Assembly: GCF_016757965.1 (NCBI RefSeq)
Contig: NZ_JAEKIW010000006.1
Span: 1 to 64,000, forward strand
Origin: Archaeoglobus neptunius
Lineage (GTDB): Archaea > Halobacteriota > Archaeoglobi > Archaeoglobales > Archaeoglobaceae
Direction: 5' to 3'
Length of the DNA: 64,000 nucleotides
Below the pieces are notes generated by a model. That model had not been told where the DNA came from, did no database searches, and saw only the letters and a list, made by a program, of their open reading frames with translations. This document shows positions 9,588 through 50,702 of this stretch, in pieces. Within the stretch, counting starts at the first letter, position 1. Every line of letters begins with the position of its first letter. Made by a program: the position numbers and the translations under genes.

Positions 9588-9612
9588 CCTCTCAATACTA
9601 AGCTCAAAATGT

Positions 9613-11016
9613 ATGAAATTTGACGTCATAATAATAGGCGCCGGACCTGGAGGAATGTTTGCAGCCTACAAGCTTGCAGGAAAGCTTAACACTGCGATTT
9701 TCGAGATGGGGCGGGATATTTCAAGCAGAAAGTGCCCAAGTGATCTGTCAGAAAGCTACTGCAGCAAATGCAACCCCTGCAACATCACATCCGGAGTTGG
9801 TGGAGCTGGAGGTCTCTCCGACGGTAAGCTGAACTACGTTAACCCCGAGTACCCATCAAGCTTCTCTGTGGGTGGTGATTTTGACTTTCTGGATCCCAAA
9901 TACCTTATAGAAAAAATGAACGAAGTTGATCAGATTTTCCTTAAACATGGCGCTCCGGACGAGATCTACGGTGAGGATCCGGAAAGAATTAACGAATTTT
10001 TAAAGAGGGCGAATGCCGCTGGAATTGAGTTCGTACCTCTCAGACAGAGACACGTGGGGAGCGATGAACTTCCCAAGGTGGTAAAAAGTATCGAGGACAG
10101 GCTAAAAAAGGAGGGTGTCAGAATCTACACCCGAAAAACCGTTGTTGACATCGATCCAGAGAAGAAAATTGTCAGAACAGATAAAGGTGAGGAATACGGA
10201 TACGACCACCTCATAATAGCGGTTGGCAGAAGTGGTGCAAGCTGGCTTGAAAGCTGGACAAAGGAGTACAGTATAGAGGTGGCGGAGAATTCAAAGGCTA
10301 TCGACGTTGGTGTCAGGGTGGAAGTTCCCGCTTCAATAATGGACGACATCACTTCAACGATCTACGATCCAAAGCTGAGAGTTACAACGAAGAGGCATGA
10401 TGATTACATGAGGACTTTCTGCACATGTCCGAGAGGGTGGGTAATAAGGGAGGACTACGGCGACTTTTGCCTTGTCAACGGCCACAGCAAGGCTAGGGAG
10501 AAGACAAACAACTCCAATTTCGCTCTTCTTGGACACTACGAGTTTACGGAACCTTTTGATGAACCCAACGAGTGGGGTAGAGACCTGGCAAGGATCACAA
10601 CAAAGCTGGGCGGAGGGAACCCGATTGTCCAGAGGCTGAAAGATCTGAGGCTGGGAAGAAGGAGTACGGAGAGCAGGATAAGAAACAACAGGCTTGTAAA
10701 ACCAACTTTAAAAACAGCAATACCGGGAGACATCAGCCTTGCCTATCCGGGGAGAGCAATAGATGACATACTCGATGCGCTTGAGAGGCTTGACAAGGTC
10801 ATTCCGGGAGTGGCTGATGACTCCACCCTCCTTTACGCTCCGGAGGTGAAATTTTACTCCTTAAAACTGAAGGTCGATGAGTGGATGAGGACAAGCATTC
10901 CATACATTTACGCTATAGGTGACGGGGCAGGGGTAAGCAGGGGAATTGTTGGAGCAGCGGTAACAGGCCTGATTGCAGCCGAGAGCATATTGAAAGAGAG
11001 AGGGATGGACGGATGA
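9613..11016 (+). CDS. FAD-dependent dehydrogenase (COG2509 type)
   Basis: 467-residue flavoprotein of the uncharacterised COG2509 family. Seen: the N-terminal FAD motif IIIGAGPGGMFAA at residues 6-18; a cysteine group (CPSDLSESYCSKCNPC, residues about 35-52) characteristic of this family and possibly metal-binding; then GVGGAGGLSDGKLNY near 56-70; and a C-terminal second FAD-binding motif YAIGDGAGVSRGIVGAA near 435-450. Family function is not established; it is a distant relative of geranylgeranyl reductases. The stop overlaps the tldD start by 4 bases (ATGA), so translation is coupled. Confidence 0.85.
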   Translation: MKFDVIIIGAGPGGMFAAYKLAGKLNTAIFEMGRDISSRKCPSDLSESYCSKCNPCNITSGVGGAGGLSDGKLNYVNPEYPSSFSVGGDFDFLDPKYLIEKMNEVDQIFLKHGAPDEIYGEDPERINEFLKRANAAGIEFVPLRQRHVGSDELPKVVKSIEDRLKKEGVRIYTRKTVVDIDPEKKIVRTDKGEEYGYDHLIIAVGRSGASWLESWTKEYSIEVAENSKAIDVGVRVEVPASIMDDITSTIYDPKLRVTTKRHDDYMRTFCTCPRGWVIREDYGDFCLVNGHSKAREKTNNSNFALLGHYEFTEPFDEPNEWGRDLARITTKLGGGNPIVQRLKDLRLGRRSTESRIRNNRLVKPTLKTAIPGDISLAYPGRAIDDILDALERLDKVIPGVADDSTLLYAPEVKFYSLKLKVDEWMRTSIPYIYAIGDGAGVSRGIVGAAVTGLIAAESILKERGMDG

Positions 11017-37172: not shown

Positions 37173-38054
37173 ATGATTCAAGACCACGATTATTTCATGA
37201 ACCCCTTGCCCAAAGAGTCCCTGGAGCTGATCAAGAGAAACATGAAAATAAGAGATGTTTTAAAAAAGATCTATGCAGATTACAGATCCAATCTGAAGCC
37301 CAATCCCAAAGATTTTGAGACAATTTTCAACGAGATATTCAGGTACTTCTTCCGACCGCTTGAAACTGCAATTTTGGGGACAATGCAGATGATACTTCTG
37401 CTGCCAACAAGGAAAAACATGAGGCTGTTTGAAATATACGGTGATACCCTCCATGCATACGAGGAGCTTTTAAAATCGATAAAAGACCATCTGGAACTGA
37501 CAATGAAAGCTTACGAAGTGTTTTTTGCGGAACCAATCAAAAATGTGAAAGACTTCATGGTGGATAACGAGCTGGAACTGCACGAGTTTGAAATATACAG
37601 ACTTGTTGCTGATTATCCATACACCATAACTAACAGGGCAATCATGCATATCTCAAAATCCTTCGATTCGTGGGAGAGATTCTCCGAAGCCTATTTTCTG
37701 TTCAAGGGCCTGATGAAGGAGACGTACATGAGAGCCGTGAGTGATTTCATTACTGCCATGAAAGATGGGGTGTTTGAAAATTATTCAGATTTTGCAAATG
37801 AATTCTACAGCATTGCTGCGTCACATTTCGACCTGCTGCTGAAATCTGATGAATACCTGGAGGTCCAGAGAGAGATGAACTCAAGTTTAATGGATCACAT
37901 TTTCCACTTCAGAAGATTTGCCGAAGAAGTCTTGGAAAACAATCCCGCAAGTCCTTTTGCCACACTGAACCAGATCGACGAAGCTTACAGAAGGATATCC
38001 GATCTGAGAAGGAAGATTCTCGAACTTGAGAGAAGGCTTGAAACCGGACCCTGA
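37173..38054 (+). CDS. phaE: PhaE-like subunit of class III PHA synthase
   Basis: 293 helical residues, matching the PhaE family in length, helical content and position directly before phaC. PhaE is the non-catalytic partner that activates class III PHA synthase. A C-terminal heptad-like helix (YRRISDLRRKILELERRLE, about 270-288) is typical of PhaE proteins, which end in a coiled coil. The middle (NPKDFETIFNEIFRYFFRPLE near 48-68; WERFSEAYFLFKGLMKETY near 164-182) is weakly related to known PhaE. There are no catalytic motifs. Assignment rests partly on context. Confidence 0.75.
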   Translation: MIQDHDYFMNPLPKESLELIKRNMKIRDVLKKIYADYRSNLKPNPKDFETIFNEIFRYFFRPLETAILGTMQMILLLPTRKNMRLFEIYGDTLHAYEELLKSIKDHLELTMKAYEVFFAEPIKNVKDFMVDNELELHEFEIYRLVADYPYTITNRAIMHISKSFDSWERFSEAYFLFKGLMKETYMRAVSDFITAMKDGVFENYSDFANEFYSIAASHFDLLLKSDEYLEVQREMNSSLMDHIFHFRRFAEEVLENNPASPFATLNQIDEAYRRISDLRRKILELERRLETGP

Positions 38055-38059
38055 GGTGA
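38053..38059 (+). promoter_or_regulatory. Shine-Dalgarno site of phaC (TTG start)
   Basis: GAGGTGA lies 4 bases before the TTG at 38064 and overlaps the phaE stop. It supports the TTG as the phaC start and suggests translational coupling. Confidence 0.6.
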
Positions 38060-38063
38060 AAAT

Positions 38064-39035
38064 TTGCTCCAGCTTCCCGAAATCAAACCGGGAACGTGCG
38101 AATATGAACTTGAAATAGAAGACTGGCTGTTCAAACTTGCCCATTTTAAATCAAAACCTCGATACAGGGTGCCGATCCTTATTTGCTACGCCTTCATAAA
38201 CCGCCCCTACATTCTTGACCTCAACAGGGAGGTCAGTGTAATAAGCAGAATGCTCGACGCTGGTCTCGATGTATGGCTGATAGACTGGGGATATCCCTCA
38301 AGGGCAGACAGGTTTTTGGAGCTTTCTGACTATCTGGATTTCATCGAAACCTGTATCGAACACATTACCGGAAAAAAAGGGGTCGAGAGTATAACCCTTC
38401 ATGGATACTGCCTCGGTTCGACGTTGGCCGTCATATACTCCTCCATATTCCCTGAAAAAATAAAAAATCTCGTCCTTCAGGCACCTGCAGTTGACTTCTA
38501 CACCACAAACACCCTGGCCCAATGGGCCAGAACAATTGAACCCGAAAAGATAGCCAGAGCTCTGGGAAACGCCACAGGAGATTTGCTGAATCTGTCATTC
38601 TTACTTGTTGATCCAATAAGACTGGTGGTCGGAAAATACCAGTCTCTTTTAGACAATTCCGAGAACACCGATTTCTTGAGAACGTTTCTTTATATGGACT
38701 GCTGGATCTTCGATTCACCGGCAGTTCCCGGCAACGTCTACGTGGAATACATAACCCGATGGTACCACAGAAACGAGGTGATTGAGGGGTTGTTCGAATA
38801 CAGAAACAGAAAGGTTGATATCAACAATCTGACCATGCCCACGTTGATCATCGCAGGGCAGAAGGATCACATAACACCCCCCGAATCGGCAAGCTCCTTT
38901 TTTGAAAGAATACCATCAAAGGACAAGAAACTGATTCTATCGGACAGGGGTCACATCGGACTGACGGTAAGCAAAAGCTCTCACAGAAAGATCTGGCCAG
39001 AAGTTATAAGATGGATTGTGGAAAGATCCCGCTAG
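38064..39035 (+). CDS. phaC: class III poly(3-hydroxyalkanoate) synthase PhaC
   Basis: 323 residues, TTG start. Alpha/beta-hydrolase enzyme that polymerises (R)-3-hydroxyacyl-CoA. The lipase-like box is GYCLGS at 114-119 with Cys 116 as nucleophile; Asp 269 lies in AGQKDHITPP and His 298 in DRGHIG. The spacings Cys-Asp 153 and Asp-His 29 equal those of the Allochromatium vinosum class III enzyme (Cys149, Asp302, His331). Also seen: VWLIDWGYPS at 70-79, matching the family's D-W-G-x-P block. The N-terminus is about 33 residues shorter than in A. vinosum. No dedicated (R)-specific reductase or hydratase gene is in the window. Confidence 0.88.
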   Translation: MLQLPEIKPGTCEYELEIEDWLFKLAHFKSKPRYRVPILICYAFINRPYILDLNREVSVISRMLDAGLDVWLIDWGYPSRADRFLELSDYLDFIETCIEHITGKKGVESITLHGYCLGSTLAVIYSSIFPEKIKNLVLQAPAVDFYTTNTLAQWARTIEPEKIARALGNATGDLLNLSFLLVDPIRLVVGKYQSLLDNSENTDFLRTFLYMDCWIFDSPAVPGNVYVEYITRWYHRNEVIEGLFEYRNRKVDINNLTMPTLIIAGQKDHITPPESASSFFERIPSKDKKLILSDRGHIGLTVSKSSHRKIWPEVIRWIVERSR

Positions 39036-39105
39036 CCTGCTGGATTGTAAAATTTTAACTCAAAATCCCGGAAATGTCGGTGGTGCACACTTTCAGAACA
39101 AACTC

Positions 39106-39115
39106 TTTAAAAACC
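39106..39115 (+). promoter_or_regulatory. TATA-like element of PUA protein gene
   Basis: TTTAAAAACC lies 17-26 bases before the ATG at 39132, consistent with a leaderless transcript. Confidence 0.45.
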
Positions 39116-39131
39116 ACACCATAATTTCTGC

Positions 39132-39596
39132 ATGCGACGAAGGAGGCTGAGGAAAAAGGAGGCCAGGAGAGTTGTTTCCGAGGTTAGAGAGACTGCAGGA
39201 GTTGAGGTCGCAGGCGACATGGATGAGATCGATTTCGGTAACATCAAGATAATCCTGGTGGATAATGAGCCCGTTCTGCTTGAATACGATGGAAAATACT
39301 ATGTTTCTGTCTATGGAGCCATCAAACTCAAACCTGAGAGATACAGAGTGACCGTAGATGAGGGTGCGCTTAAATTCGTGATGAATGGTGCCGATGTTAT
39401 GAAACCCGGAATTGTCTTCGCAGATGAAAGGATTAGCGAAGGGGACTTTGTCTACGTCACCGTTGAGGGAAAGGAGAGTCCAATTGCCGTGGGAGTTGCC
39501 CTGTGCGATGGAAAAGAAATGGTCGGTGGAAAGGGCAAGGCCGTGAAGAACATTCACCACCTGAAGGATAAAATCTGGAGATATTTCTTTGGGTAA
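39132..39596 (+). CDS. PUA domain RNA-binding protein (DUF1947-PUA type)
   Basis: 154 residues. The N-terminal ~75 residues correspond to the DUF1947/pre-PUA domain (very basic opening MRRRRLRKKEARRV, then IDFGNIKIILVDNEPVLLEYDGKYYVS near residues 36-62). The C-terminal PUA domain begins near 78 (VDEGALKFVMNGADVMKPGI, V-x-x-G-x-x-x-x-x-x-G-A-x-x-x-P-G-I signature) and ends in a strand with AVGVALCDGKEM. It resembles archaeal MCT-1-like proteins; binding to tRNA or rRNA is expected but the target is unknown. Confidence 0.85.
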   Translation: MRRRRLRKKEARRVVSEVRETAGVEVAGDMDEIDFGNIKIILVDNEPVLLEYDGKYYVSVYGAIKLKPERYRVTVDEGALKFVMNGADVMKPGIVFADERISEGDFVYVTVEGKESPIAVGVALCDGKEMVGGKGKAVKNIHHLKDKIWRYFFG

Positions 39597-39626
39597 AGTT
39601 AAAATTATCTGAAGTTACCTTTTTAC

Positions 39627-39860
39627 ATGGCTCTTGGATTCGTCCTAATAAAGGTCTCACCGGGAAAAGAAAGAAGAGTTTACGATACCATTGCCAGACT
39701 TGAGGAGGTTGAAGAACTCTATCCTTTGTTCGGGGAATACGACCTGATAGCCAAGATAGTCGTTAGAGATTTCGAGGAGCTGAGCGATGTTGTTGTGAAC
39801 AAGATAAGATCAGCCGATGGTGTCATTGAAACGAAAACACTGACAGGGGCGAAATTCTGA
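39627..39860 (+). CDS. stand-alone Lrp/AsnC ligand-binding (RAM) domain protein
   Basis: 77 residues made only of the Lrp-type effector/oligomerisation domain, with no HTH. LGFVLIKVSPGKERRVYDTIARLEEVEELYPLFGEYDLIAKI-like strands and helices (about 2-45) end with DGVIETKTLTGAKF. Such 'demi-regulators' bind amino acids or form mixed oligomers with full Lrp proteins. Its stop overlaps the next gene's start by one base, so a functional link with the ACT-domain protein is likely. Confidence 0.85.
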   Translation: MALGFVLIKVSPGKERRVYDTIARLEEVEELYPLFGEYDLIAKIVVRDFEELSDVVVNKIRSADGVIETKTLTGAKF

Positions 39861-40519
39861 TGTTAAAAGGGCTGAGAATTATAGCCGATAACAGAATTGG
39901 GGTACTCAGGGATCTGACGGCAGTTATAGCAGAGGAAGGGGGAAATATCACCTTTGCCCAGACTTTCCTGATTAAACATGGAGAACATGCCGGAAAGGCC
40001 CTGATCTACTTCGAAATTGACGGTGGTAATTTTGGAAATATCGTCGAAAAGGTCAGGAAGTTTGATTACATAATAGAGGTTGAGGAAGAGGAACCGTTTG
40101 AAAGGGTATTCGGCAAGAGGATAATCATCCTCGGTGGTGGGGCTTTGGTTTCGCAGGTTGCCATTGGTGCGATAAGCGAGGCTGACAGACACAACTTACG
40201 GGGAGAGAGGATCAGTGTAGACACCATGCCTGTTGTGGGTGAAGAGGAAATAGCAGAGGCTGTAAAGGCCGTCTCCAGACTTCACAGGGCCGAAGTTCTC
40301 GTACTCGCCGGTGGAATAATGGGGGGCAAGATTACTGAGGAGGTAAAGAAGTTGAGAAAAAGTGGAATAAGGGTGATTTCGCTGAACATGTTTGGCAGTG
40401 TTCCCCATGTGAGTGATGTCGTCATCAGCGACCCTGTGATGGCCGGTACCATAGCAGTTATGCACATAAGCGAGAAGGCAAAGTTTGACATTGACAGGGT
40501 GAAGGGGAGGCGGATTTAA
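39860..40519 (+). CDS. ACT domain protein with DUF5612 C-terminal half
   Basis: 219 residues. Residues 1-75 are an ACT domain (LRIIADNRIGVLRDLTAVIAEEGGNITF: the D-N-x-G-V-L-x-D-L/I signature), which usually binds amino acids. Residues about 85-219 match the archaeal DUF5612 family: IIILGGGALVSQVAIGAI near 88-105, then VDTMPVVGEEEIAEAVKAV and VLVLAGGIMGGKITEEVKKL, resembling a nucleotide-fold or periplasmic-binding-like unit. Function not established; an amino-acid-responsive role is likely from the ACT domain. It is coupled to the RAM domain protein upstream. Confidence 0.8.
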   Translation: MLKGLRIIADNRIGVLRDLTAVIAEEGGNITFAQTFLIKHGEHAGKALIYFEIDGGNFGNIVEKVRKFDYIIEVEEEEPFERVFGKRIIILGGGALVSQVAIGAISEADRHNLRGERISVDTMPVVGEEEIAEAVKAVSRLHRAEVLVLAGGIMGGKITEEVKKLRKSGIRVISLNMFGSVPHVSDVVISDPVMAGTIAVMHISEKAKFDIDRVKGRRI

Positions 40520-40521
40520 GT

Positions 40522-40531
40522 AAATTTTATC
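40522..40531 (+). promoter_or_regulatory. TATA-like element of cobalamin transport cluster
   Basis: AAATTTTATC lies 24-33 bases before the GTG start of btuC at 40555, in the 35-base gap after the ACT gene. I saw no cobalamin riboswitch-like leader; there is no room for one. Confidence 0.45.
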
Positions 40532-40554
40532 AAATGCCCACTTAACTTGACCGT

Positions 40555-41523
40555 GTGAGATTCACGACAACGATCCTTCTGCTCCTGGGCCTCAACTTTG
40601 CCGTCATACTGCTAGCCCTGAGTGTGGGCAGCGCCGGTTATGATTATCTTTTCAGAATTATTAGCGGCAGCGCTGACGATACCGCAGTAAAGATAGTCTT
40701 CGAATACAGATTGCCCAGACTGCTGCTCGCAATGGTTGCCGGAGCGGCACTGTCATCATCCGGATGCGCAATGCAGGCCCTTTTCAGGAACCCTCTGGCA
40801 GAACCGTACGTACTGGGTGTGGCAAGCGGTGCAAGCGTCGGAGCTGCACTGTCCGTGGCTCTCGGCATTGAGGGAATCTATTCGAGAATGGGGCTCGCAT
40901 TTTCCATAGCTCTACTAACCGCATACATCGTTTACATGATCGGCTCAGCATCCAGATTCAGAGACCAGACTTACGCCATACTCCTTGCCGGAGTGGCCAT
41001 GGCAAGCTTTTTCTCAGGAGTGACGTCGCTGCTCATTTACTTTTCCACTCAAAACATGCATAAGGTAATATTCTGGCTGATGGGTAGCTTCTCCAATCCA
41101 TTCATGGAGGAAGTGCTGTTTGCCCTGCCAGTTACAATCGCCGGCGTCATATACCTGATCGTAACGTCCTGGAACCTGAATGCACTGCTACTGGGAGATG
41201 AACATGCCAGTGCAGTTGGAATTAACGTCGAGAGATACAGAAGGTCACTAATTGCGGTGGTTGCTCTGCTCACCTCAGCAACTGTAGCCGTGAGCGGAGT
41301 GATAGGTTTTGTGGGAATTATAATTCCACACACCATGAGGATTCTGGTCGGAGAGGAGCACCAGAAGCTACTTCCATCAACAGTACTTCTATCAACAGCA
41401 TTCATGCCTGCAATAGACATAATAACAAGGATCTCAACAAACGGCGAGCTTCCTGTGGGAGCAATTACAGCAATGCTCGGAGGTCCTTTCTTCCTCTACC
41501 TGCTGTTAAGGGGATCAGTATGA
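40555..41523 (+). CDS. btuC: cobalamin ABC transporter permease BtuC
   Basis: 322 residues, GTG start, FecCD family permease with about ten membrane helices. Seen: RLPRLLLAMVAGAALSSSGCAMQALFRNPLAEPYVLGVASGASVGAAL (about 52-98), whose R-L-P-R and Q-x-x-x-x-N-P-L-A-x-P motifs are family landmarks; WLMGSFSNP near 178-186; and VSGVIGFVGIIIPHTMRILVGEEHQKLLPST (about 247-277), the cytoplasmic loop that meets the ATPase. It overlaps btuD by 4 bases. FecCD members import B12 or siderophores; the neighbours (CbiZ, BtuF, DUF4430 proteins) point to corrinoids. Confidence 0.92.
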   Translation: MRFTTTILLLLGLNFAVILLALSVGSAGYDYLFRIISGSADDTAVKIVFEYRLPRLLLAMVAGAALSSSGCAMQALFRNPLAEPYVLGVASGASVGAALSVALGIEGIYSRMGLAFSIALLTAYIVYMIGSASRFRDQTYAILLAGVAMASFFSGVTSLLIYFSTQNMHKVIFWLMGSFSNPFMEEVLFALPVTIAGVIYLIVTSWNLNALLLGDEHASAVGINVERYRRSLIAVVALLTSATVAVSGVIGFVGIIIPHTMRILVGEEHQKLLPSTVLLSTAFMPAIDIITRISTNGELPVGAITAMLGGPFFLYLLLRGSV

Positions 41524-42740
41524 AGCTTGTAGTTAAAGGAGTTTCGGTAAGGCTCGGAAGCAAGGAGGTGTTGAAAGACGTAACTTTTGAAGTAAAGGAG
41601 GGGGAGCTTGTAGCCTTACTGGGTCCGAACGGCAGTGGAAAGTCGACAATTCTCAGAACGATATTCGGTTTGCTCAAACCACTCAAGGGAGTTGTGATGT
41701 TTGATGGAAAATGGATTGAAAATATGGAAGAAACAGCCAAGAAACTGGGATATCTTCCCCAGGATACACCTATTACCAACTTAAGAGTTATGGAAGTTGT
41801 TCTGCTCGGAAGGACGCCGTACATGAAAGGTCTGAAGAAGCCGGGTGAGGATGACCGTCGTATAGCGTTAAAGGCTCTAAGAGATGTCGGGATGGAGAAT
41901 ATGGCAGACAGATCTTTCTCGGAACTTAGTGGAGGAGAGAGGCAGAAAGTCATGCTCGCAAGAGTTTTTGCCCAGGAACCACAGATAATGCTGCTCGACG
42001 AGCCAACAGCCCATCTCGATATTGCTGCACAGATTGAGATAATGGAGATTATCAGAAATAAGGTTGATAATGGAATGGCAGCGATAGTTGCAATTCACGA
42101 CATTAATCTCGCATCCTCCTTTGCAACCCGTATTTTAATGGTTAAAGACGGCAAGATCGTTCATGCAGGTAAATCCGTGGATGTCATCACCGAAGAGAGT
42201 ATAAAGTATGTTTTCGGAGCAGATGTGAGTGTAAAAAGATACGGTCGAGGAGTGTACATCGTACCGAAATTCAGGAGGCCAGAGGGGACGGGGAGAGTTC
42301 ATGTCATATGCGGTGGAGGAAGCGGAATAAACATACTCCACATTTTGAGAGAGGAAGGATTCGCTGTGTCTGCCGGTGTGATCAATGTTCTTGACACAGA
42401 CTGGGAGATTGCTTCAGAACTTGGGGAGGTTGTAGACGAGGCACCATTTTCCCAGATAAGCGATTTCTCCCATGACCGAAATCTTAAAATGATTGAAAAA
42501 AGCGATGTCGTAGTTCTCTCAAACCTGAGTGTCGGATGGGGAAATTTCAAGAACCTGCTGGCTGCACTGCATGCTGCAAACATGGGCAAGCTGGTTGTGG
42601 TCAACGAAACCCCATTTAGCGAGCGAAACTTCGCTGGACGTGAGGCAGAAAAAATCTACGAAAAGATTCTGAAAAAGGCAGTTATTGTTAGAAATGAAGG
42701 TGAGATGCTGAATGCCATACGAAAATTACTGGACCGATAG
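41520..42740 (+). CDS. btuD: cobalamin ABC transporter ATPase BtuD with a C-terminal extension
   Basis: 406 residues. The ABC ATPase domain (about 1-255) has Walker A GPNGSGKST at 35-43, the signature LSGGE at 136-140, Walker B MLLDEPT at 157-163 and a switch His near 190. Residues about 262-406 form an extra domain opening GRVHVICGGGSGINILHIL, with EKSDVVVLSNLSVGWGN near 326. This extension is known in archaeal B12 ABC ATPases but its role is not established; a Rossmann-like shape suggests nucleotide or cofactor binding. It overlaps cbiZ by 29 bases. Confidence 0.9.
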   Translation: MKLVVKGVSVRLGSKEVLKDVTFEVKEGELVALLGPNGSGKSTILRTIFGLLKPLKGVVMFDGKWIENMEETAKKLGYLPQDTPITNLRVMEVVLLGRTPYMKGLKKPGEDDRRIALKALRDVGMENMADRSFSELSGGERQKVMLARVFAQEPQIMLLDEPTAHLDIAAQIEIMEIIRNKVDNGMAAIVAIHDINLASSFATRILMVKDGKIVHAGKSVDVITEESIKYVFGADVSVKRYGRGVYIVPKFRRPEGTGRVHVICGGGSGINILHILREEGFAVSAGVINVLDTDWEIASELGEVVDEAPFSQISDFSHDRNLKMIEKSDVVVLSNLSVGWGNFKNLLAALHAANMGKLVVVNETPFSERNFAGREAEKIYEKILKKAVIVRNEGEMLNAIRKLLDR

Positions 42741-43278
42741 CAGAACGCTCATAGTATCGGGAGACTTTTTTGGAGTTAGTACGGGCTTGCTCGGCGGGTG
42801 GGGGAGGGTGAAACATGCGTTTAACCACACCGTTGGCGAAGAGTTTTACAGCTCCGACCCAGTTGAATACCTGCGGAAGACTGCAAAATCCTACAATCTC
42901 AGATCTTATTTTGGTCTGCTGACCTCCGTTCCGATGGATAAGCTAAGCATCACGGGTTACGACAGGGTCACCGTTTTCACAACTGCTGGAGTTAAAAATC
43001 CCAACGAAAGAATTGGGACGATCAACATAATAGCAGTTTTTGAGTGCAGACTGAGCAGAGCAGCGATGTTAAATGCGATAATAACGGCCACTGAAGCAAA
43101 AACAAAAGCACTTCTGGAATCTGGATGCAACTTTACCGGTACCAGCACAGATGCTGTTGTTATCCTTAGCACCCAGAGGGGAAAGTACTACAAATTTGCC
43201 GGTCCCGGCAGCGATGTGGGTGCTATGCTGTGGAAATGCGTGATCGACACCGTTAAGGAAAGCCTAGCAAAATGGTAG
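42712..43278 (+). CDS. cbiZ: adenosylcobinamide amidohydrolase CbiZ
   Basis: 188 residues. CbiZ removes the aminopropanol side chain of adenosylcobinamide to give adenosylcobyric acid, letting archaea and some bacteria remodel salvaged corrinoids with their own nucleotide loop. Seen: LSTGLLGGWGRVKHAFNHTV-type block (here GVSTGLLGGWGRVKHAFNHT, about 22-41), VFTTAGVKNPNERIG near 85-99, and NFTGTSTDAVVIL near 143-155 followed by AGPGSDVG near 166-173, a highly conserved end region. The 29-base overlap with btuD shows coupling to the importer. Its presence implies import of incomplete or foreign corrinoids. Confidence 0.93.
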   Translation: MPYENYWTDSRTLIVSGDFFGVSTGLLGGWGRVKHAFNHTVGEEFYSSDPVEYLRKTAKSYNLRSYFGLLTSVPMDKLSITGYDRVTVFTTAGVKNPNERIGTINIIAVFECRLSRAAMLNAIITATEAKTKALLESGCNFTGTSTDAVVILSTQRGKYYKFAGPGSDVGAMLWKCVIDTVKESLAKW

Positions 43279-43320
43279 CAAATCAACAATTCTTTACAGA
43301 ATATCAACTTTCTTGGAAAA

Positions 43321-43330
43321 TTTTTTAAAG
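43321..43330 (+). promoter_or_regulatory. TATA-like element of first DUF4430 protein gene
   Basis: TTTTTTAAAG lies 22-31 bases before the ATG at 43352. It suggests an extra promoter inside the cobalamin cluster and excludes the upstream start at 43313. Confidence 0.45.
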
Positions 43331-43351
43331 CTGATATCAACCATTTCTGAC

Positions 43352-45181
43352 ATGAGAAAAATAATATTGATATTAATGCTGTTTGTTCTGACGGTTTGTC
43401 TGGCTCAAGCCAGTACTTTTCACGGAGATGACCAGAGAACCGGAAACTTTACTGCCAGTGTCGAGGTGTTACCGTCCCTTAACTGGACAGCTGAGTTGAC
43501 GGGTCTGGTGGACTCCTCACCCGTTTACTACAATGGCCACATTTACGTCACCAACTGGTACGGCTGGGGAACATGGCAGCCGGGATTGTACTCGCTCAAC
43601 GCCACTACAGGGGCGGTGGAATGGAAAAATGATTCAATCACAGGTGCATCATCTGTTGCAGTTTTTGGGGACAAGCTCGTTGTTGGGAGCCTCTCAGGAA
43701 CCCTGTACTACGTCAACATCACCAGTGGGAAAATAGTCAAATCCGTGAAGCTCGAATCCTCGCCATCATGGTGGGGTATAGCCTCCTCCCCACTGGTCTA
43801 CAATGGATCGGTATACGTTACAACTTTCTCAAATGGAACTTTGTGGAAACTGGATGCAGACGGAAATGTCCTTTGGCATTACACCTCGGGCGGTGAGATC
43901 ACACCTTACTCCTCTCCATCAGCATACAACGGGCTGATATTTTTTGCAGGTAATGAAAGCGGGAAGCACGTTCTGATTGCCATAAATGAGAGCGGCGATA
44001 TTCAATGGAAGTTTCCGGTTGATGGCAAGATAACAAACAGCCCGTCAGTTGGAGATGGTAAGGTATTCATCGCAACAAAAAGCAAACTTTACGCCATAAA
44101 TTTTGACGAAAGTGAAGCATGGAATGTTTCGTTCAATGGTACAATATCTACAGCGGCAATTGCATATGGTAACATATACATAGGATCTTCTGATGGCAAG
44201 CTATACTGCTTTGATTCAAACACTGGAAACAAAAAATGGGAATTTGACGCCGGAGGGAAGATTGATTCCTCTCCTGCAGTTGCAAACGGCGTTGTCTACT
44301 TCGCAACAAATACCCCACATGGTACTCTCTACGCAGTTAACGCATTCACCGGAGAACTGCTCTGGTACTACCGCCTGACTCCCCCTTCCGGAAGCTATTA
44401 CAACATCATGTCTTCGCCTTTCATCGCCAACAACAGACTCTTCATAGGTGCTGACAGCGGATACGTTTACTGCTTCAAATCAGGTGTTGTGGAGGTAAAC
44501 GTTACCCTGTACCCCGGCAAGTATACGGAGAGAGCGGGAACAGGCAGTTACGAGGTCAACAGCACATCAGCCCTTGCGGCACTGCACTACGCTAGTCTTG
44601 GAGGAATTTCAGATGGGGCGGAAATCGGATTTAACTATTCCATCAATGATAGTTCTTACACTCAGGACGGCTCTCTGAATGTTTCAGCAATAATGGGCTT
44701 GCAGAACGACGGACTCAAATGGAGGTACTGGGTCAACGATGTCTCTCCTGCAGTGTCCCCCAACAAATACGAACTTTCCAACGGCGACACGATATACTAC
44801 ATTTTTGGAACAGACACACCACCGAACGCTCAGATCATGCTGAAGATAAACGCAAAGGTTATGCCGGCTGGTGTAAACGCCATTACAGTTTCAAACGGTG
44901 CTAGGGGTGGAAACATAACCTCCTGGGTTAATGTAACCTCCACTACAAGCGGCTGGTTTGTAATTGTTGTTAGCGGTACAAACGATAACGGAGAGGCGAT
45001 AGCAGGTATTTCAACAGTCAGACTGAATGCAAATGAGGAGACGCGGGTACCCGTGCTGATACACGTCCCCCAGCTTGCAGAAACCGGGACATACACACTT
45101 TATGCAGGAGTTTACAGATTCGAGGATTACCCGAACAACCCGCTGGTTATCAGCAGCCCGGTTAGCTCCGAGGTGAGCTGA
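43352..45181 (+). CDS. exported PQQ-type beta-propeller protein with a DUF4430 (transcobalamin-like) domain
   Basis: 609 residues from the ATG at 43352. A signal peptide (hydrophobic 4-17, end near AQAS) is followed by about 370 residues of PQQ-like propeller blades: repeated pairs such as DSSPVYYNGHIYVTN, GKVFIATKSKLYAIN, GNIYIGSSDGKLYCFD and SSPAVANGVVYFATN, each followed by G-x-x-x-W. From about residue 390 a DUF4430-like unit appears: NVTLYPGKYTERAGTGSY, TSALAALHYAS and WRYWVNDVSPAVSPNKYELSNGD, matching the intrinsic-factor C-domain pattern with the late G-D-x-I-x-Y/W. A final CARDB-like beta domain ends without an anchor. Between cbiZ and btuF; a corrinoid-binding role is inferred. Confidence 0.78.
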   Translation: MRKIILILMLFVLTVCLAQASTFHGDDQRTGNFTASVEVLPSLNWTAELTGLVDSSPVYYNGHIYVTNWYGWGTWQPGLYSLNATTGAVEWKNDSITGASSVAVFGDKLVVGSLSGTLYYVNITSGKIVKSVKLESSPSWWGIASSPLVYNGSVYVTTFSNGTLWKLDADGNVLWHYTSGGEITPYSSPSAYNGLIFFAGNESGKHVLIAINESGDIQWKFPVDGKITNSPSVGDGKVFIATKSKLYAINFDESEAWNVSFNGTISTAAIAYGNIYIGSSDGKLYCFDSNTGNKKWEFDAGGKIDSSPAVANGVVYFATNTPHGTLYAVNAFTGELLWYYRLTPPSGSYYNIMSSPFIANNRLFIGADSGYVYCFKSGVVEVNVTLYPGKYTERAGTGSYEVNSTSALAALHYASLGGISDGAEIGFNYSINDSSYTQDGSLNVSAIMGLQNDGLKWRYWVNDVSPAVSPNKYELSNGDTIYYIFGTDTPPNAQIMLKINAKVMPAGVNAITVSNGARGGNITSWVNVTSTTSGWFVIVVSGTNDNGEAIAGISTVRLNANEETRVPVLIHVPQLAETGTYTLYAGVYRFEDYPNNPLVISSPVSSEVS

Positions 45182-47625
45182 TGCGCTGGAGCCTGATCTT
45201 ACTATTTCTGGTTTTTCTCCTGCCACATGCATCGGCCCTCACACTTACCGTTAGCGGTGGATGTCTCAACAATCAGGTCACAGTTACAACAGATGAGAAG
45301 GCCACGATAATATTCAGAATGAATGGAGGAACTCCAGTTTTTTCAGAATCATCCCCTGACAGTCCAGCGTACTACATTCCCAGAATCACCGGAAATCTCA
45401 ACATCACCGCCATTTCGGACGGCGATAGTACCACCAAAATTCTGACGATCTCATCATGCCAGAGCAGTGGAGGTGGAGGGGGAAAAGCTGTCACAGTTCA
45501 GCAGAACGTCCTACCCTATGGAACGTTTGAAGTTCTCGGCAAGGAAGTTGAGTGGAGAACTGCATATGGAGCACTTAAGAAGGCATCCGAAATCATGGGA
45601 TTTTCGGTAACTCCCGAACTTACAGACTGGGGGATTTTTGTAAAATGCATTAAAGATCTTTGCAGGGGTGACATTGGTGAGACTTCTGGATGGATGTACT
45701 GGGTTGACTATCCGGATAAACCCATGCCCGGCGTTGCGGCAACTGACTACAGGATCTATCCGGGAGATGAGATTGTATGGTACTTTTCCCGCAGCATGAG
45801 TGACAGTCCGGAGAGCTCGCCCTACAGAATTTACATCAGCATAGGAGATAATTACGACATCAGCGTGAGTATGGTGTGGCCCTCAAAGGTACCTCCAGTA
45901 GCCGATTTTACCTACTCCCCATCCAATCCAATTGCTGGTGAGGAGGTTATCTTCAACGCATCAAACTCCGTGGATGACGGGCAGATTACGGACTACATCT
46001 GGAATTTTGGAGACGGCAAAGGTGCCAGAGGTGTAACTGTAACGCACGTCTACACCAACCCCGGCAGTTACAAAGTTACGCTGACTGTTTACGACAACGA
46101 TGGTCTTTCAGACACCATAACCAAGGAGATAAACGTCAGTCAGCCCGGCATATTCGTCAATACAACAAATCAGACCATAGTCATTCAGCCGGGTAAAGTG
46201 AAGATTGTGCTCTCAGACAATGTTACCGAAAACCTGTCCATTACCGGTCTCACTCTTGAATCGGAGAATGCTGCCAGGGTCACCATATCCAAAGCCCATG
46301 CACCTCCCGGAATTATATACGGTACATTTTACAGGTGTTTCGAGATAAAAGCAAATGAGTCGCTCAAAGCCAGGATCGATTTCAGAGTGCCGAAAGACGC
46401 TGCCGAAGGCAGGAATGTTGTACTCATGAAGTACAACGGAAGCTGGTTCGAACTTCCCACCAAGAAAACGGGCGAGGACAGTGATTACATCTACTACTCT
46501 GCTGAAACCCGATCATTCAGCGTGTTCGCCATAACCATCAAATGGAATGACTTTCCCCTGAACTCAAGCAATGTAAGCATTCAGAAAGCATTGAAGTGGC
46601 TCAGGTCAATTCAGAACAGCGATGGAGGGTTTGCCAATCCTGGAGAGAACAGCAGCGTTGCAAAAACAGCATGGGCCATCATGGCTATAGTTGCGGCCCA
46701 TCAGGACCCACACAAGTGGACAAAAAACGGTAAAAGCCCAATTGACTTCATGAGGGAGAGACTGAAAAAGGAAGTGGACACCATGGGTACAGAGGACTAC
46801 GCCAGAACGATACTGGCTCTTGTCTATGCAGGCGAGAATCCGAAAAACTTTGCTGGAATTGATCTTGTAGGCAAATTGAAGTCCAGCATCAAGGATAACG
46901 GACAGATAGGAGACTTCGTATACAAAACAATCTGGGGAATACTCGCACTCACATCAGTTGGTGAGAATGTTTCCAAATCCGCAGAATGGCTGAAAGCGCA
47001 GCAAAATCCGGACGGCGGATTTTCATGGAAGGTTGGTGGAAAGAGTGATTTTGACGACACGGCTGCTGCAATAGAGGCATTAATCGCTGCAGGAGAGCCA
47101 AAGGATTCAGAATGTATCATCAAAGCTCTGAAATATCTGAAAGAAGGGCAGAACGATGATGGTGGGATGAGATACTTCGGAAGCTCTGCCAGTAATGCGG
47201 CAAGTGATGCATGGACAATACAGGCGCTTGTTGCTGCCGGTGTCAATCCCGCAGAATGGAAGAAAAACAACATCAGCGTAGTTGATCACCTGCTGAAACT
47301 CCAAACAGAGGAGGGATACTTCAGATACACCGAGTATCAAACTTCAAACCCCGGCTACATGACGGTCAATGCCATTATGGCTCTGCTTGGAAAGCCACAT
47401 CCCATAAGGATTAACGCCTCAATTGCCACGACTACAGCACCCACACCAACCGTGACCACCACAGCTCCAGAGACAACCCAAACTCCAACGGTAAAGACGA
47501 CCACCCAGGCCGTTCAAACCGTGACAACTGAAACCAAACCCACTCCCGGATTCTCCGTAATATCTGCCATAATGGCGATAGCTGCAATTACAGCGTTTGG
47601 AGCGATTGGGGGTAGAAAAAGATGA
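45181..47625 (+). CDS. surface-anchored intrinsic-factor-like protein: DUF4430, PKD, pre-PGF, alpha/alpha toroid, PGF-CTERM
   Basis: 814 residues. Order seen: signal peptide 1-19; beta domain 20-95; DUF4430-like domain about 107-205 (TAYGALKKASEIMG, GWMYWVDYPDKP, YRIYPGDEIVWYF); PKD domain about 238-320 (WNFGDGKG, THVYTNPGSYKVTLTVYDND); a PGF-pre-PGF-like domain about 325-455; a terpenoid-cyclase-like repeat region about 465-735 with SIQNSDGGFAN (477), AQQNPDGGFSW (606), GQNDDGGMRY (656) and LQTEEGYFRY (707); Thr-rich stalk 745-785; PGF-CTERM 788-814 (PTPGFSVISA, hydrophobic helix, GGRKR). Animal intrinsic factor and transcobalamin combine exactly a toroid and this small beta domain around B12. 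Starts on the stop of the preceding gene; overlaps btuF by 4 bases. Corrinoid binding is inferred. Confidence 0.8.
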   Translation: MRWSLILLFLVFLLPHASALTLTVSGGCLNNQVTVTTDEKATIIFRMNGGTPVFSESSPDSPAYYIPRITGNLNITAISDGDSTTKILTISSCQSSGGGGGKAVTVQQNVLPYGTFEVLGKEVEWRTAYGALKKASEIMGFSVTPELTDWGIFVKCIKDLCRGDIGETSGWMYWVDYPDKPMPGVAATDYRIYPGDEIVWYFSRSMSDSPESSPYRIYISIGDNYDISVSMVWPSKVPPVADFTYSPSNPIAGEEVIFNASNSVDDGQITDYIWNFGDGKGARGVTVTHVYTNPGSYKVTLTVYDNDGLSDTITKEINVSQPGIFVNTTNQTIVIQPGKVKIVLSDNVTENLSITGLTLESENAARVTISKAHAPPGIIYGTFYRCFEIKANESLKARIDFRVPKDAAEGRNVVLMKYNGSWFELPTKKTGEDSDYIYYSAETRSFSVFAITIKWNDFPLNSSNVSIQKALKWLRSIQNSDGGFANPGENSSVAKTAWAIMAIVAAHQDPHKWTKNGKSPIDFMRERLKKEVDTMGTEDYARTILALVYAGENPKNFAGIDLVGKLKSSIKDNGQIGDFVYKTIWGILALTSVGENVSKSAEWLKAQQNPDGGFSWKVGGKSDFDDTAAAIEALIAAGEPKDSECIIKALKYLKEGQNDDGGMRYFGSSASNAASDAWTIQALVAAGVNPAEWKKNNISVVDHLLKLQTEEGYFRYTEYQTSNPGYMTVNAIMALLGKPHPIRINASIATTTAPTPTVTTTAPETTQTPTVKTTTQAVQTVTTETKPTPGFSVISAIMAIAAITAFGAIGGRKR

Positions 47626-48554
47626 AAAAATTTTTCATATTACTTTTAATTTCTGCCCTACTCCTTCTATGCGCTTCAAAGCCCGTTGACAATCATGAGC
47701 ACAGATTCAACTTAACGGAGATATTAAATGCCACGCCCGTTGATGATACCGGGCATGTCATAAAAAAAGGACACCCCAAACGCATCGTTTCGCTCGCTCC
47801 AAGCAACACCGAGATTCTCTTTGCCATCGGAGCTGGAGACAGGGTTGTAGGGGTTACGGACTACTGCAATTACCCACCAGAGGTGATTGAGAGGAAAAAG
47901 AATGGTTCACTGGTAAGCATCGGAGGGTACTCGACCATAAACATTGAAAAGATAATATCTTTAAAGCCAGATCTTGTTGTTGCATCCTACGGTAACGGCC
48001 TCGAGAACATCGAAACGCTGAGGAGGTTTGGAATCAATGTCATAGCCTTTGATCCGAGGACGATCGAAGACGTAATGAAAGACATCGTTCTGATAGGAAT
48101 CGCCACCGGAAACTACGAAAATGCCACAAAAGTTGTAAGAGAGATGGCATATAAAATTGAGAATGTGACAAAGTGGGTAAAGAACAAGCCAAAAGTCAGG
48201 GTTGCTCACATACTGTGGTACGACCCGATTTACGTCAGTGGAAAAAACACTTTCATCGACGAGGTCTTCACTCTGGCCAATGGGGAAAACGTGTTCAAAT
48301 TCAGTGGCTGGAAGGTTGTAAGTGTTGAGGATCTGATTGCAGCCAATCCAGACGTCATAATAGTCAGCAGCGGTACGGGTATGAGTGGTGGGAAGGACGT
48401 GGTTTACCAGTGGGTCATCAGCGATGACAGGTTGAAGGATATTAAAGCTGTGAAAAACGGGAGGGTATATGTGGTCAATGCAGATATCATTGATCGCCCA
48501 TCCTACAGGCTTGCAGATGCTGTTGAGATAATAGCGAAACTGATCCACAAGTAA
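47622..48554 (+). CDS. btuF: cobalamin ABC transporter substrate-binding protein BtuF
   Basis: 310 residues. Helical-backbone periplasmic-binding family: HPKRIVSLAPSNTEILFAIGAGDRVVGVTDYCNYP (about 51-85) is the classical BtuF/FecB opening. Later landmarks are LKPDLVVASYGNG near 114-126, YDPIYVSGKNTFIDEVFTLANGENVF near 202-227, and an end block with VYVVNADIIDRPSYRL near 280-295. The N-terminus has a short signal segment with Cys 17 after LLLL, a weak lipobox that might carry a lipid anchor. The ATGA overlap with the DUF4430/PGF-CTERM gene couples expression of the two capture proteins. Confidence 0.9.
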   Translation: MKKFFILLLISALLLLCASKPVDNHEHRFNLTEILNATPVDDTGHVIKKGHPKRIVSLAPSNTEILFAIGAGDRVVGVTDYCNYPPEVIERKKNGSLVSIGGYSTINIEKIISLKPDLVVASYGNGLENIETLRRFGINVIAFDPRTIEDVMKDIVLIGIATGNYENATKVVREMAYKIENVTKWVKNKPKVRVAHILWYDPIYVSGKNTFIDEVFTLANGENVFKFSGWKVVSVEDLIAANPDVIIVSSGTGMSGGKDVVYQWVISDDRLKDIKAVKNGRVYVVNADIIDRPSYRLADAVEIIAKLIHK

Positions 48555-48576
48555 ATGCATCCAAGCGGGAAAGTTA

Positions 48577-48583
48577 CTTATAT
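48577..48583 (+). promoter_or_regulatory. TATA-like element of HARP gene
   Basis: CTTATAT lies 23-29 bases before the ATG at 48606, in the 51-base gap after btuF. An alternative AT-rich run (ATTATAATTTTTTAG) is too close to the start to be the TATA box. Confidence 0.35.
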
Positions 48584-48605
48584 TCACGGAATTATAATTT
48601 TTTAG

Positions 48606-49286
48606 ATGCGCCAAAGATTTGTGCTGGACACAACTGCAATAACAGATGCGGGTCTCAGGATTAAGGAGGGCTATGAATCCCTATGTGAGTCCGCCAATGA
48701 GATACTGAATCTGATAGCTCTTGCGAGGCTTAAACTGGACATAAGCTGCTACATCCCATATCCTTCAGTGTACACCGAACTGACAAGTTTTCTCAAAAGA
48801 TACGGATGTGATGAGGATGTTTTTGCAAAACTCGACACATGGCTGGTAAAGAAGACCCCAAACAGATTTGAGGTCAAGATTCCTGCTGCGATATTCTACG
48901 ACTACATAATAACGGTGAGGCAGAAAATGAACAGGGGCAGAAGACTGGCGGAGGAATACATACTGGAGGCATCTGCCATTACGTCCAAGCTTGAGGACAA
49001 AAGCAACATCGAAGTCGAAATTGGAAGCTTAATATCAAAGTTCAGAGACAAGTACAGGGCTGTGATGAGGCAGGGAATTTTGGACAGTGCTCCAGACCTC
49101 GATGTACTTCTTCTGGCAAAAGAGCTTGAAGCAGGAGTCGTTAGCAGTGACGCAGGAATCAGAAAATGGAGCGAAAGACTGGGGCTCAGATTTGTAGAAG
49201 CTTCAAAGTTTCCAAGAATGCTGAAGGAATATCTGAAATTGATGAATATGGGAGAGTTGAGTGAGGGTGAGGGGAGGTTAGGTTAA
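48606..49286 (+). CDS. RNA-free ribonuclease P (HARP, UPF0278; formerly 'RNA ligase partner protein')
   Basis: 226 residues of the UPF0278 family. The Aquifex aeolicus homologue is a protein-only RNase P that removes tRNA 5' leaders. PIN-like metallonuclease core: FVLDTTAITD at 5-14 with Asp 8 and Asp 14, and DSAPDLDVLLLAKE near 158-171 followed by GVVSSDAGIRKW near 175-186, giving the acidic cluster. The helical insert between (about 75-150) matches the dimerisation spike of HARPs. Archaea with a HARP normally also keep RNA-based RNase P, so its role here is uncertain. It stands 51 bases upstream of the mch start. Confidence 0.88.
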   Translation: MRQRFVLDTTAITDAGLRIKEGYESLCESANEILNLIALARLKLDISCYIPYPSVYTELTSFLKRYGCDEDVFAKLDTWLVKKTPNRFEVKIPAAIFYDYIITVRQKMNRGRRLAEEYILEASAITSKLEDKSNIEVEIGSLISKFRDKYRAVMRQGILDSAPDLDVLLLAKELEAGVVSSDAGIRKWSERLGLRFVEASKFPRMLKEYLKLMNMGELSEGEGRLG

Positions 49287-49325
49287 AAGACAAAAAATAA
49301 AAACTCTTGAGAAATGGTAAGGGTA

Positions 49326-49333
49326 GAGGTGGT
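49326..49333 (+). promoter_or_regulatory. Shine-Dalgarno site of mch
   Basis: GAGGTGGT lies 3 bases before the ATG at 49337. It decides this start over the in-frame start at 49307. Confidence 0.6.
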
Positions 49334-49336
49334 AAA

Positions 49337-50287
49337 ATGTTGAGTGTAAACGAGATTGCCGCAGAAATTGTTGAGGACATGCTGGATTATGAAGAAGAGC
49401 TTAGAATAGAGTCCAAAAAGCTTGAAAATGGTGCTGTTGTAGTGGACTGTGGAGTCAACGTTCCGGGGAGTTACGATGCGGGAATAATGTACACACAGGT
49501 TTGCATGGGAGGTCTGGCAGATGTTGACATCGTCGTGGACACGATAAACGATGTTCCATTCGCATTCGTGACGGAATATACCGATCATCCGGCAATTGCC
49601 TGTCTTGGAAGCCAGAAAGCTGGCTGGCAGATAAAGGTTGAAAAATACTTCGCAATGGGTAGTGGCCCTGCGAGAGCACTCGCCTTGAAGCCGAAAAAGA
49701 CCTATGAGAGAATAGAATATGAGGATGATGCCGACGTGGCAGTCATCGCTCTGGAAGCGAATCAACTTCCCGACGAGAAAGTTGTGGAGTTCATAGCCAA
49801 GGAATGTGATGTTGATACAGAAAATGTATACGTTCTTGTTGCACCAACGGCAAGCATTGTCGGCAGCGTTCAGATATCTGGCAGAATAGTGGAGACTGCA
49901 ATTTTCAAGATGAACGAGATTGGCTATGATCCCAAGCTGATTGTTAGTGGAGCCGGCAGATGTCCGATTTCACCGATTCTCGAGAATGATCTTAAAGCTA
50001 TGGGATCAACCAACGACAGCATGATGTACTATGGCAGTGTTTTCCTGACTGTCAAGAAGTACGACGAGATTCTGAAGAACGTGCCAAGCTGCACAAGCAG
50101 AGATTACGGAAAGCCCTTCTACGAGATATTCAAGGCCGCAAACTACGATTTCTACAAGATTGATCCGAATCTCTTTGCTCCTGCCCAGATCGCCGTCAAC
50201 GATCTTTCAACGGGCAAAACCTACGTCCATGGAAAGCTCAATGCAGACGTGCTGTTCCAGTCCTACCAGATTGTACCGGAAGAGTAA
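49337..50287 (+). CDS. mch: methenyltetrahydromethanopterin cyclohydrolase
   Basis: 316 residues from the ATG at 49337. Mch interconverts 5-formyl- and 5,10-methenyl-H4MPT, a central step of the C1 pathway used by methanogens and, in reverse, by Archaeoglobus to oxidise acetyl units to CO2. Seen: [14 protein letters not shown] near residues 36-49, [21 protein letters not shown] near 78-98, and [13 protein letters not shown] near 111-123, all characteristic. The length is normal. Monocistronic or read from the HARP gene upstream; no other C1 pathway gene is in the window. Confidence 0.94.
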
Positions 50288-50288
50288 A

Positions 50289-50303
50289 CTTCTCTTTCTT
50301 TTT
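50289..50303 (+). terminator. T-rich tract after mch
   Basis: CTTCTCTTTCTTTTT just after the mch stop is a plausible archaeal T-rich terminator ahead of the tRNA gene's promoter. Confidence 0.35.
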
Positions 50304-50311
50304 AATCAGAA

Positions 50312-50320
50312 GATTTATCT
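50312..50320 (+). promoter_or_regulatory. TATA-like element of tRNA-Arg
   Basis: GATTTATCT lies 27-35 bases before the first base of the tRNA at 50347. Confidence 0.45.
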
Positions 50321-50346
50321 TTCCACCTGTCAGAGTGTCATTCGTT

Positions 50347-50418
50347 GCCCCCGTGGGGTAGCGGATATCCTGAGGGGCTGCGGACTCCTCGACCCGGGTT
50401 CAATTCCCGGCGGGGGCA
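50347..50418 (+). tRNA. tRNA-Arg (anticodon GCG)
   Basis: 72 bases without encoded CCA. The acceptor stem GCCCCCG pairs with CGGGGGC, with discriminator A. The D arm contains G18-G19 followed by A20, an arginine identity base. The anticodon stem AGGGG/CTCCT closes the loop CTGCGGA, anticodon GCG reading CGC/CGU. The T arm is CCGGG-TTCAATT-CCCGG. No intron. Variable loop 4 bases. Confidence 0.92.
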
Positions 50419-50455
50419 CTTCCGTGCATTTGCTTGAAGGCCAAGATCCCTAGAG

Positions 50456-50702
50456 CTATTGCAGATCCAGATTGTCAATAACAGACTTCAATTTCCTGAC
50501 CTCTTCAACGTACTTCCGATAGCCCAAGCTCTGTTATGGCCACAACAGTTCTGACACCCCTTGACGTTATGGCCTTCTTTCTCTTTATGTATCCTCTTCT
50601 TTCAAGCCTTGAAAGATGCGTTGATAAACTCCCCCAATCTATCTTTGTGGCTTTAGCCAAATCCCCCTCTGTGATCTCTCTAAAAAGGAAGAGAACAGTC
50701 AT
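50456..50702 (-). pseudogene. winged-helix regulator disrupted by a +1 frameshift
   Basis: Reading from the ATG at 50702 gives a clear HTH_34-like winged helix (LAKATKIDWGSLSTHLSRLE, then RRGYIKRKKAITSRGVRTVV), but the frame ends at 50505 after ELGLSEVR. If one G is removed from the GGG at 50523-50525 (minus strand), the frame continues ELG-YRKYVEEVRKLKSVIDNLDLQ to a TAG at 50456-50458, the usual dimerisation helix of this family. The 5' end is also odd: codons upstream (IFDEDIVNPKRILI) look coding, but no standard start precedes them. Either a decaying gene or a sequencing error. The neighbouring membrane protein gene overlaps its upstream part. Confidence 0.7.

Follow-up and report, generated by a model that had tools for sequence, protein, structure and literature searches.

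Predicted cell-surface corrinoid capture proteins with a transcobalamin-type domain encoded beside btuF in Archaeoglobus neptunius

The stretch of DNA analysed here (hereafter the window) comprises 64,000 nucleotides of Archaeoglobus neptunius (contig NZ_JAEKIW010000006.1, positions 1 to 64,000). At 40555-48554 it carries six tandem genes, all on the + strand: btuC, btuD, cbiZ, two genes of large exported proteins, and btuF. An original prediction, made from the sequence without database searches, had read these as a cobalamin capture cluster with a surface receptor resembling animal intrinsic factor. The open reading frame coordinates and the Pfam and NCBIfam assignments obtained here agree with it as far as the six genes are concerned.

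The importer genes were recognised by their families. btuC (40555..41523, +) encodes the permease of a corrinoid ATP-binding cassette (ABC) importer (Pfam FecCD, E = 2.1e-85), and btuD (41520..42740, +) encodes the importer ATPase, 406 residues long with a C-terminal extension (ABC_tran, E = 1e-34). Their top NCBIfam matches are, respectively, the vitamin B12 permease BtuC, under the equivalog cut-off, and the corrinoid ABC transporter ATPase PRK09536 (2.6e-81), also under its cut-off. btuF (47622..48554, +) encodes a corrinoid-binding protein that is probably a lipoprotein (Peripla_BP_2, E = 3.6e-40; LLLLC lipobox found by eye), and its closest PDB sequence is the vitamin B12-binding protein 5ysc (E = 3.8e-33). 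The nearest characterised relatives of BtuF, BtuC and BtuD are B12-specific, which suggests the same substrate here by best match only, equivalog cut-offs being unreached. Between the importer genes lies cbiZ (42712..43278, +), which encodes adenosylcobinamide amidohydrolase (PF01955, E = 1.4e-42) and is single copy, with one match in the genome search. The CbiZ family serves in corrinoid remodelling and salvage.

The last three genes, i.e., that of a beta-propeller protein, that of an 814-residue protein with an alpha/alpha toroid, and btuF, overlap one another. The propeller gene is joined to the toroid gene by TGATG at 45179-45183 and the toroid gene to btuF by ATGA at 47622-47625, and translational coupling is therefore plausible; the coupling of the toroid gene to btuF had been predicted, and the overlap it would need is present. 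A TATA-like stretch found by eye, TTTTTTAAA (43321..43329, +), is located 23-31 nucleotides upstream of ATG 43352 of the propeller gene. It may be a separate promoter of the propeller-toroid-btuF unit, and the last three genes may therefore also have a transcript of their own. No cobalamin riboswitch or other Rfam element was found in 38000-50500, a tRNA being the sole Rfam match, and a scan for sigma-70-type promoters, a model not suited to archaea, gave no matches above chance. In the 2.1-Mb genome as a whole, DUF4430 occurs exactly twice and the SQHop toroid protein and the PQQ_2 propeller protein once each, in every case within this cluster.

The first exported protein (43352..45181, +) is a secreted PQQ-type beta-propeller (PQQ_2, E = 9.5e-41) of about eight repeats, counted by eye, with a C-terminal DUF4430. 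Its open reading frame as listed encodes 622 residues from TTG 43313; the true start is very probably ATG 43352, because the methionine there is invariant in 17 homologues. The DUF4430, transcobalamin C-domain-like, lies at residues 443-496 (44639..44800, +; Pfam E = 1.2e-6) and had been overlooked in the original prediction. The propeller was also considered as a homologue of BtuG, a reading that found no support in sequence, since its PDB sequence matches up to E = 0.01 did not include BtuG2 (3DSM). In one close relative (L039 9123-11027 / L073 6714-8618), the propeller-DUF4430 gene is ~40-44% identical to that of the window and the genes flanking it are 70-80% identical, as if the propeller had been replaced in place.

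The second exported protein (45181..47625, +), of 814 residues, was resolved by Pfam, NCBIfam and homologue alignment into a signal peptide, a conserved N-terminal unit, a DUF4430, a PKD domain, a PGF-pre-PGF-like domain, an alpha/alpha toroid and a PGF-CTERM sorting signal. The PKD domain, as predicted, is present at residues 237-318 (45889..46134, +; PKD_4, E = 6.3e-23); many homologues of the protein are devoid of it. The PGF-pre-PGF-like domain occupies residues 382-452 (46324..46536, +; NCBIfam E = 9e-13, above cut-off). The predicted PGF-CTERM anchor was recovered by homologue alignment at residues 788-814 (47542..47622, +), where the PGF motif is followed by a hydrophobic stretch and a basic tail, and Gly790 and Phe791 of the motif are invariant across 20 homologues; the Pfam PGF-CTERM model gave no score on the protein. 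The genome also encodes archaeosortase A (TIGR04125, E = 1.3e-67), of the enzyme family responsible for the processing of PGF-CTERM proteins.

Where a DUF4430-like unit had been predicted in this protein (residues 107-205), the Pfam match, a PDB profile search and a structure model place a transcobalamin-type beta-grasp at residues 107-222 (45499..45846, +). Pfam matched residues 128-203 (E = 3.6e-7, above cut-off), and the two DUF4430s of the cluster scored 31 and 29.3 bits against a gathering score of 23.8. When the DUF4430 profile was searched against 177,635 PDB sequences, human transcobalamin-1 came first (E = 2.3e-5), ahead of transcobalamin-2 and then intrinsic factor, and hhalign aligned the domain with the human transcobalamin beta-domain at 92% (E = 7e-7). 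The model of residues 100-230, built from 47 aligned homologues, had a mean predicted local distance difference test score (pLDDT) of 93.4. Its top 15 Foldseek matches in the PDB were all transcobalamin or intrinsic factor (probability ~1.0, with modest E-values of 1e-3 to 0.1), so that the structural match to the transcobalamin C-domain on which the original prediction had staked itself was found. In the model, strands at 16-19 and 22-25, a helix at 29-40, strands at 44-49 and 52-58 and further strands thereafter make up a beta-grasp fold with a hairpin following the helix. Locally, DWGIFVKCIKDLC of the window protein matches SWGPYITCIQGLC of human haptocorrin, and among the archaeal sequences both cysteines of this stretch reach a conservation of at least 90%. 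On the strength of the profiles and the predicted structure, the domain is assigned to the transcobalamin C-domain clade.

The alpha/alpha toroid spans residues 455-742 (46543..47406, +; Pfam, model and Foldseek). Pfam reported SQHop_cyclase_C at 596-721 (E = 1.7e-16) and Prenyltrans (E = 2e-11), and the model of residues 452-750 (pLDDT 96.3) has twelve helices in an alpha6/alpha6 toroid. The terpenoid-cyclase-like repeat region predicted at 465-735 is therefore real, with all four Q-x-x-D/E-G-G/Y motifs in place (Q478, Q608, Q657 and Q708). PF01122, which the original prediction had proposed to search for, gave no match in the 814-residue protein at E up to 1. Alignment of the toroid with the human transcobalamin alpha-domain by hhalign (the human sequence being identical to 2bb5 over 290 residues) gave a probability of 2.7%, and neither intrinsic factor nor transcobalamin was among the top 50 structural matches of the toroid, which were filled by cyclases and prenyltransferases. 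These three results lend no support to the toroid as a true alpha-domain of intrinsic factor or transcobalamin; as judged from sequence and model, a common fold class is all that can be said of the two. The prediction of a protein resembling intrinsic factor was thus supported in part: the transcobalamin-type DUF4430 and the alpha/alpha toroid stood, the toroid showed no specific kinship with the animal alpha-domain, and the module order is the reverse of the animal one.

The DUF4430 search covered 393 genomes of the phylum, 158 of which had a match. From the best matches listed, which are not a random draw, 80 DUF4430 loci were annotated with profiles built for this analysis and BLAST to the window proteins. 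A BtuF homologue accompanied the toroid at 42 of 44 loci and was found at 49 of the 54 loci with a toroid or a full propeller; of the five exceptions, L063, L072 and L171 are short contigs. Where both toroid and full propeller were missing, only 3 of 26 loci had BtuF, and therefore the three-module set, rather than DUF4430 alone, is the marker of B12. Within the Archaeoglobaceae the toroid is encoded in 33 and a BtuF orthologue in 43 of 55 genomes, with BtuF in all 33 toroid genomes and the toroid in none of the 12 that lack BtuF (Fisher p = 1.5e-6, phylogeny not corrected). The toroid ends at most 1.3 kb from BtuF in 32 of the 33, the two being on different contigs in the remaining genome (G199). 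Homologues do lie near B12 genes, as had been predicted, and are sometimes even fused with BtuF; this pattern argues strongly for a link of the surface proteins to corrinoid uptake. PKD domains, propellers and PGF-CTERM signals are frequent among archaeal surface proteins, and the two exported proteins could be ordinary surface-layer or adhesin proteins that stand beside btuF by accident. This is hardly credible, because the toroid adjoins BtuF in 32 of the 33 family genomes that have it, fusions occur elsewhere, and the genome has no further DUF4430, SQHop toroid or PQQ_2 propeller.

Several of the surveyed loci deserve separate mention. In a single-contig genome of the same genus (G112:C1:1245878-1246794), btuF is split into two overlapping segments (query 4-192 and 187-310); the split resembles a frameshift, and the rest of the cluster is intact. 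At four loci of large genomes (L136, L137, L138 and L143, family f5), DUF4430 proteins, one of them with five tandem copies, are accompanied by other surface proteins of propeller-like type and are distant from any BtuF; some archaeal DUF4430s therefore probably have a different ligand or role. The cluster was also encountered in broken frames on a contig labelled as a Candidatus Nitrosotalea metagenome-assembled genome (MAG; L110), possibly through contamination or low-quality sequence.

The modules are shuffled among relatives. The toroid is fused to BtuF at 10 of the 80 loci and the propeller at 4, examples of both being confirmed by Pfam. In Methanomicrobiales (Methanocalculus, Methanoculleus and Methanofollis; L102-L108, L116), toroid and BtuF form a single polypeptide, typically of 650-690 residues, and the DUF4430s belong to other proteins encoded upstream, in most cases the propeller protein. 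In a further Halobacteriota family (f7; L169, L170), BtuF, propeller and DUF4430 are combined in a single polypeptide, and in MAGs of Methanosarcinales and Methanophagales (L095, L098) DUF4430 and toroid are separate neighbouring proteins. Methanosarcina acetivorans, a genetically tractable relative, likewise encodes DUF4430 and SQHop domains. Clostridia-type loci (L113, L114) are arranged as DUF4430, DUF4430, CbiQ, double ATPase, toroid and S-component of an energy-coupling factor (ECF) transporter; here the same capture modules appear to serve a different, CbiQ-type transporter. The modules are shuffled while the company of BtuF is constant, and nothing else argues as well for a joint action of BtuF and the surface proteins. 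What the computation itself yielded are the domain identities, the predicted folds, the structure of the operon, its conserved linkage and the BtuF fusions.

That it is the toroid and not DUF4430 that is fused to BtuF in the Methanomicrobiales-type genomes, together with the lack of specific similarity to the transcobalamin alpha-domain, could also mean that the DUF4430s alone bind the corrinoid and that the toroid serves for docking or as a spacer, recruiting BtuF without closing over the ligand. This is quite unlikely, as W513, D522, D578, W585, D623, D625 and D626 of the toroid are polar or aromatic residues invariant in archaea, beyond what a spacer would need, and the animal toroid contacts B12, as stated in PMC1796856 and PMC11107200.

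Taken together, the surface proteins and the importer very probably constitute a cell-surface B12 catcher, as far as sequences and models can tell. We infer that its ligand is a corrinoid, because of the kinship of DUF4430 with transcobalamin, the B12-binding structures nearest to BtuF, and CbiZ. The cluster is likely to encode a two-stage uptake system, in which a surface complex is followed by transfer to BtuF. In the first stage, the complex would consist of the DUF4430-toroid protein, anchored through PGF-CTERM and archaeosortase, and the secreted propeller-DUF4430 protein. The DUF4430 beta-grasp would touch the corrinoid first, outside the cell, and the alpha/alpha toroid would then shut over it, sandwiching it as do the alpha- and beta-domains of transcobalamin and intrinsic factor. 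In the second stage the corrinoid would pass to BtuF, which would dock on BtuCD for import, and CbiZ would trim the cobamides or cobinamide taken up, allowing an exchange of the lower ligand. The alpha- and beta-domains of transcobalamin require cobalamin in order to associate, and the interface between them is small (PMC5599065); binding begins at the beta-domain, over which the alpha-domain then closes (PMC11107200); therefore, split or permuted modules could still form a clamp. The natural toroid-BtuF and propeller-BtuF fusions suggest that the hand-off is by direct contact. The fuller proposal has, in our judgement, an even chance of being right: that Halobacteriota possess a multi-protein surface relay (propeller-DUF4430, DUF4430-toroid clamp and BtuF) with hand-off from clamp to BtuF through physical contact, which would do in prokaryotes what the B12 carriers do in animals, sharing their B12-gripping domain and feeding an ABC importer instead of a receptor.

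On the other hand, several observations weigh against such a two-stage system for corrinoids. The toroid resembles cyclases and prenyltransferases more than it does intrinsic factor or transcobalamin and retains a cyclase-like DXDD motif, and the genome has cbiC. Relative to the animal carriers the modules stand in reverse order, with the PKD domain in between. DUF4430 also occurs at loci without any B12 transport gene, so that by itself it is no proof of a corrinoid ligand. Two toroid loci that are not at contig ends are without BtuF: L062 has neither BtuF nor a transporter in reach, and L139 adjoins a CobN gene. In the latter (31-10654), the genes of the toroid and of a protein with three copies of DUF4430 have as neighbours those of a CobN-type chelatase, an AAA protein of chelatase type and a BtuD-like ATPase, a neighbourhood whose gene families still point to a tetrapyrrole or corrin context.

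The toroid itself is nearest in structure (Foldseek) to squalene-hopene cyclases, MstE, drimenyl diphosphate synthase and prenyltransferase beta subunits, and its DXDD-like motif at residues 623-626, the counterpart of the cyclase motif in the alignment, shows no variation among 34 archaeal toroids. These features would fit a surface enzyme, type II cyclase-like or other, with a BtuF neighbourhood that reflects a different pathway. We regard this as very improbable: the predicted location of the protein is outside the cell, where one would not look for isoprenoid substrates, the toroid is fused or linked with BtuF and ECF transporters, and asparagine takes the place of the middle aspartate of the motif in 10 of 18 bacterial relatives, so that acid catalysis is unlikely to be what the family has in common. 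In the archaeal toroids alone, acid catalysis may still occur.

The genome also encodes cbiC, and the host may therefore make its own corrin ring. The same complex and BtuF-like importer might then capture some other tetrapyrrole or a cobalt species instead of cobamides; this would agree with the matches of BtuC and BtuD under their cut-offs, with the weaker matches of BtuF to heme-binding proteins of the PDB, and with the distinct metabolite that Burroughs et al. (2007, PMC1796856) raised for archaea. It is nevertheless unlikely, as the corrinoid-acting CbiZ is in the operon, the nearest structures of BtuF bind B12, and the DUF4430 is closest to B12 carriers among all solved structures.

Outside the cluster, at 37173-39035, the window contains two adjoining genes that resemble a class III polyhydroxyalkanoate synthase pair, unexpected in Archaeoglobus: one has a weak PHA_synth_III_E match (E = 1.1e-4, under the Pfam cut-off) and the other encodes an alpha/beta hydrolase with a G-Y-C-L-G box.

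The uptake of corrinoids across the archaeal surface layer is poorly known. The operon follows BtuCDF importers in having a FecCD permease, an ATPase and a Peripla_BP_2 binding protein, and differs from them in the C-terminal extension of the ATPase and in the accessory surface proteins encoded between btuD/cbiZ and btuF. BtuG of Bacteroides is a surface-exposed seven-bladed beta-propeller, the partner of outer-membrane BtuB, and catches B12 for the importer (PMC6143338). The archaeal protein is likewise a surface propeller adjoining B12 uptake genes, but it is PQQ-type with about eight repeats, carries a DUF4430 and has no sequence match to 3DSM.

The general idea has been known since 2007, which the original prediction had overlooked. 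Burroughs et al. (2007; PMC1796856) defined a transcobalamin-like SLBB clade in Gram-positive bacteria and euryarchaea, described its fusions to toroids (on either side), propellers and Ig-type domains as well as paired SLBB proteins in operons, and named an Archaeoglobus protein (gi 11498993). B12 scavenging was proposed there for bacterial members with CbiO/CbiQ, and a distinct metabolite for archaea because these often make B12. The window has the same domain clade, the partner toroid and a second SLBB (DUF4430) protein in the operon; the bacterial members accompany CbiQ/CbiO (ECF), whereas those of the window accompany BtuFCD and CbiZ. This linkage and the fusions with BtuF, whether of toroid or propeller, of which the 2007 text makes no mention, are added here; they favour corrinoids, against the doubt raised then about a B12 role in archaea. 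An experimental test of prokaryotic DUF4430 proteins was not found in the open-licence literature, so that prokaryotic relatives of intrinsic factor have apparently been predicted since 2007 without experiment in the searchable literature. The BtuF fusions suggest a hand-off mechanism that is testable.

Like animal intrinsic factor, transcobalamin and haptocorrin, the archaeal surface protein combines a transcobalamin-type beta-grasp and an alpha/alpha toroid within one secreted protein; the secondary-structure order of its beta-grasp is that of rat transcobalamin (PMC11107200), and it shares the WG-[FY]-[VI]-x-C-I-x-x-L-C stretch with haptocorrin. In contrast to the animal carriers, in which the toroid is followed by a linker and the beta-grasp, the order is DUF4430 (107-222), PKD and toroid (455-742); the toroid is not PF01122 and has no cysteine pairs, and the protein is membrane-anchored and encoded in an operon with an ABC importer. 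Conserved and coherent in function, the cluster thus plausibly works like intrinsic factor and lies outside that family, because PF01122 is absent and the module order is reversed. It also speaks for the view that the B12-gripping domain of the animal carriers arose long ago in prokaryotes.

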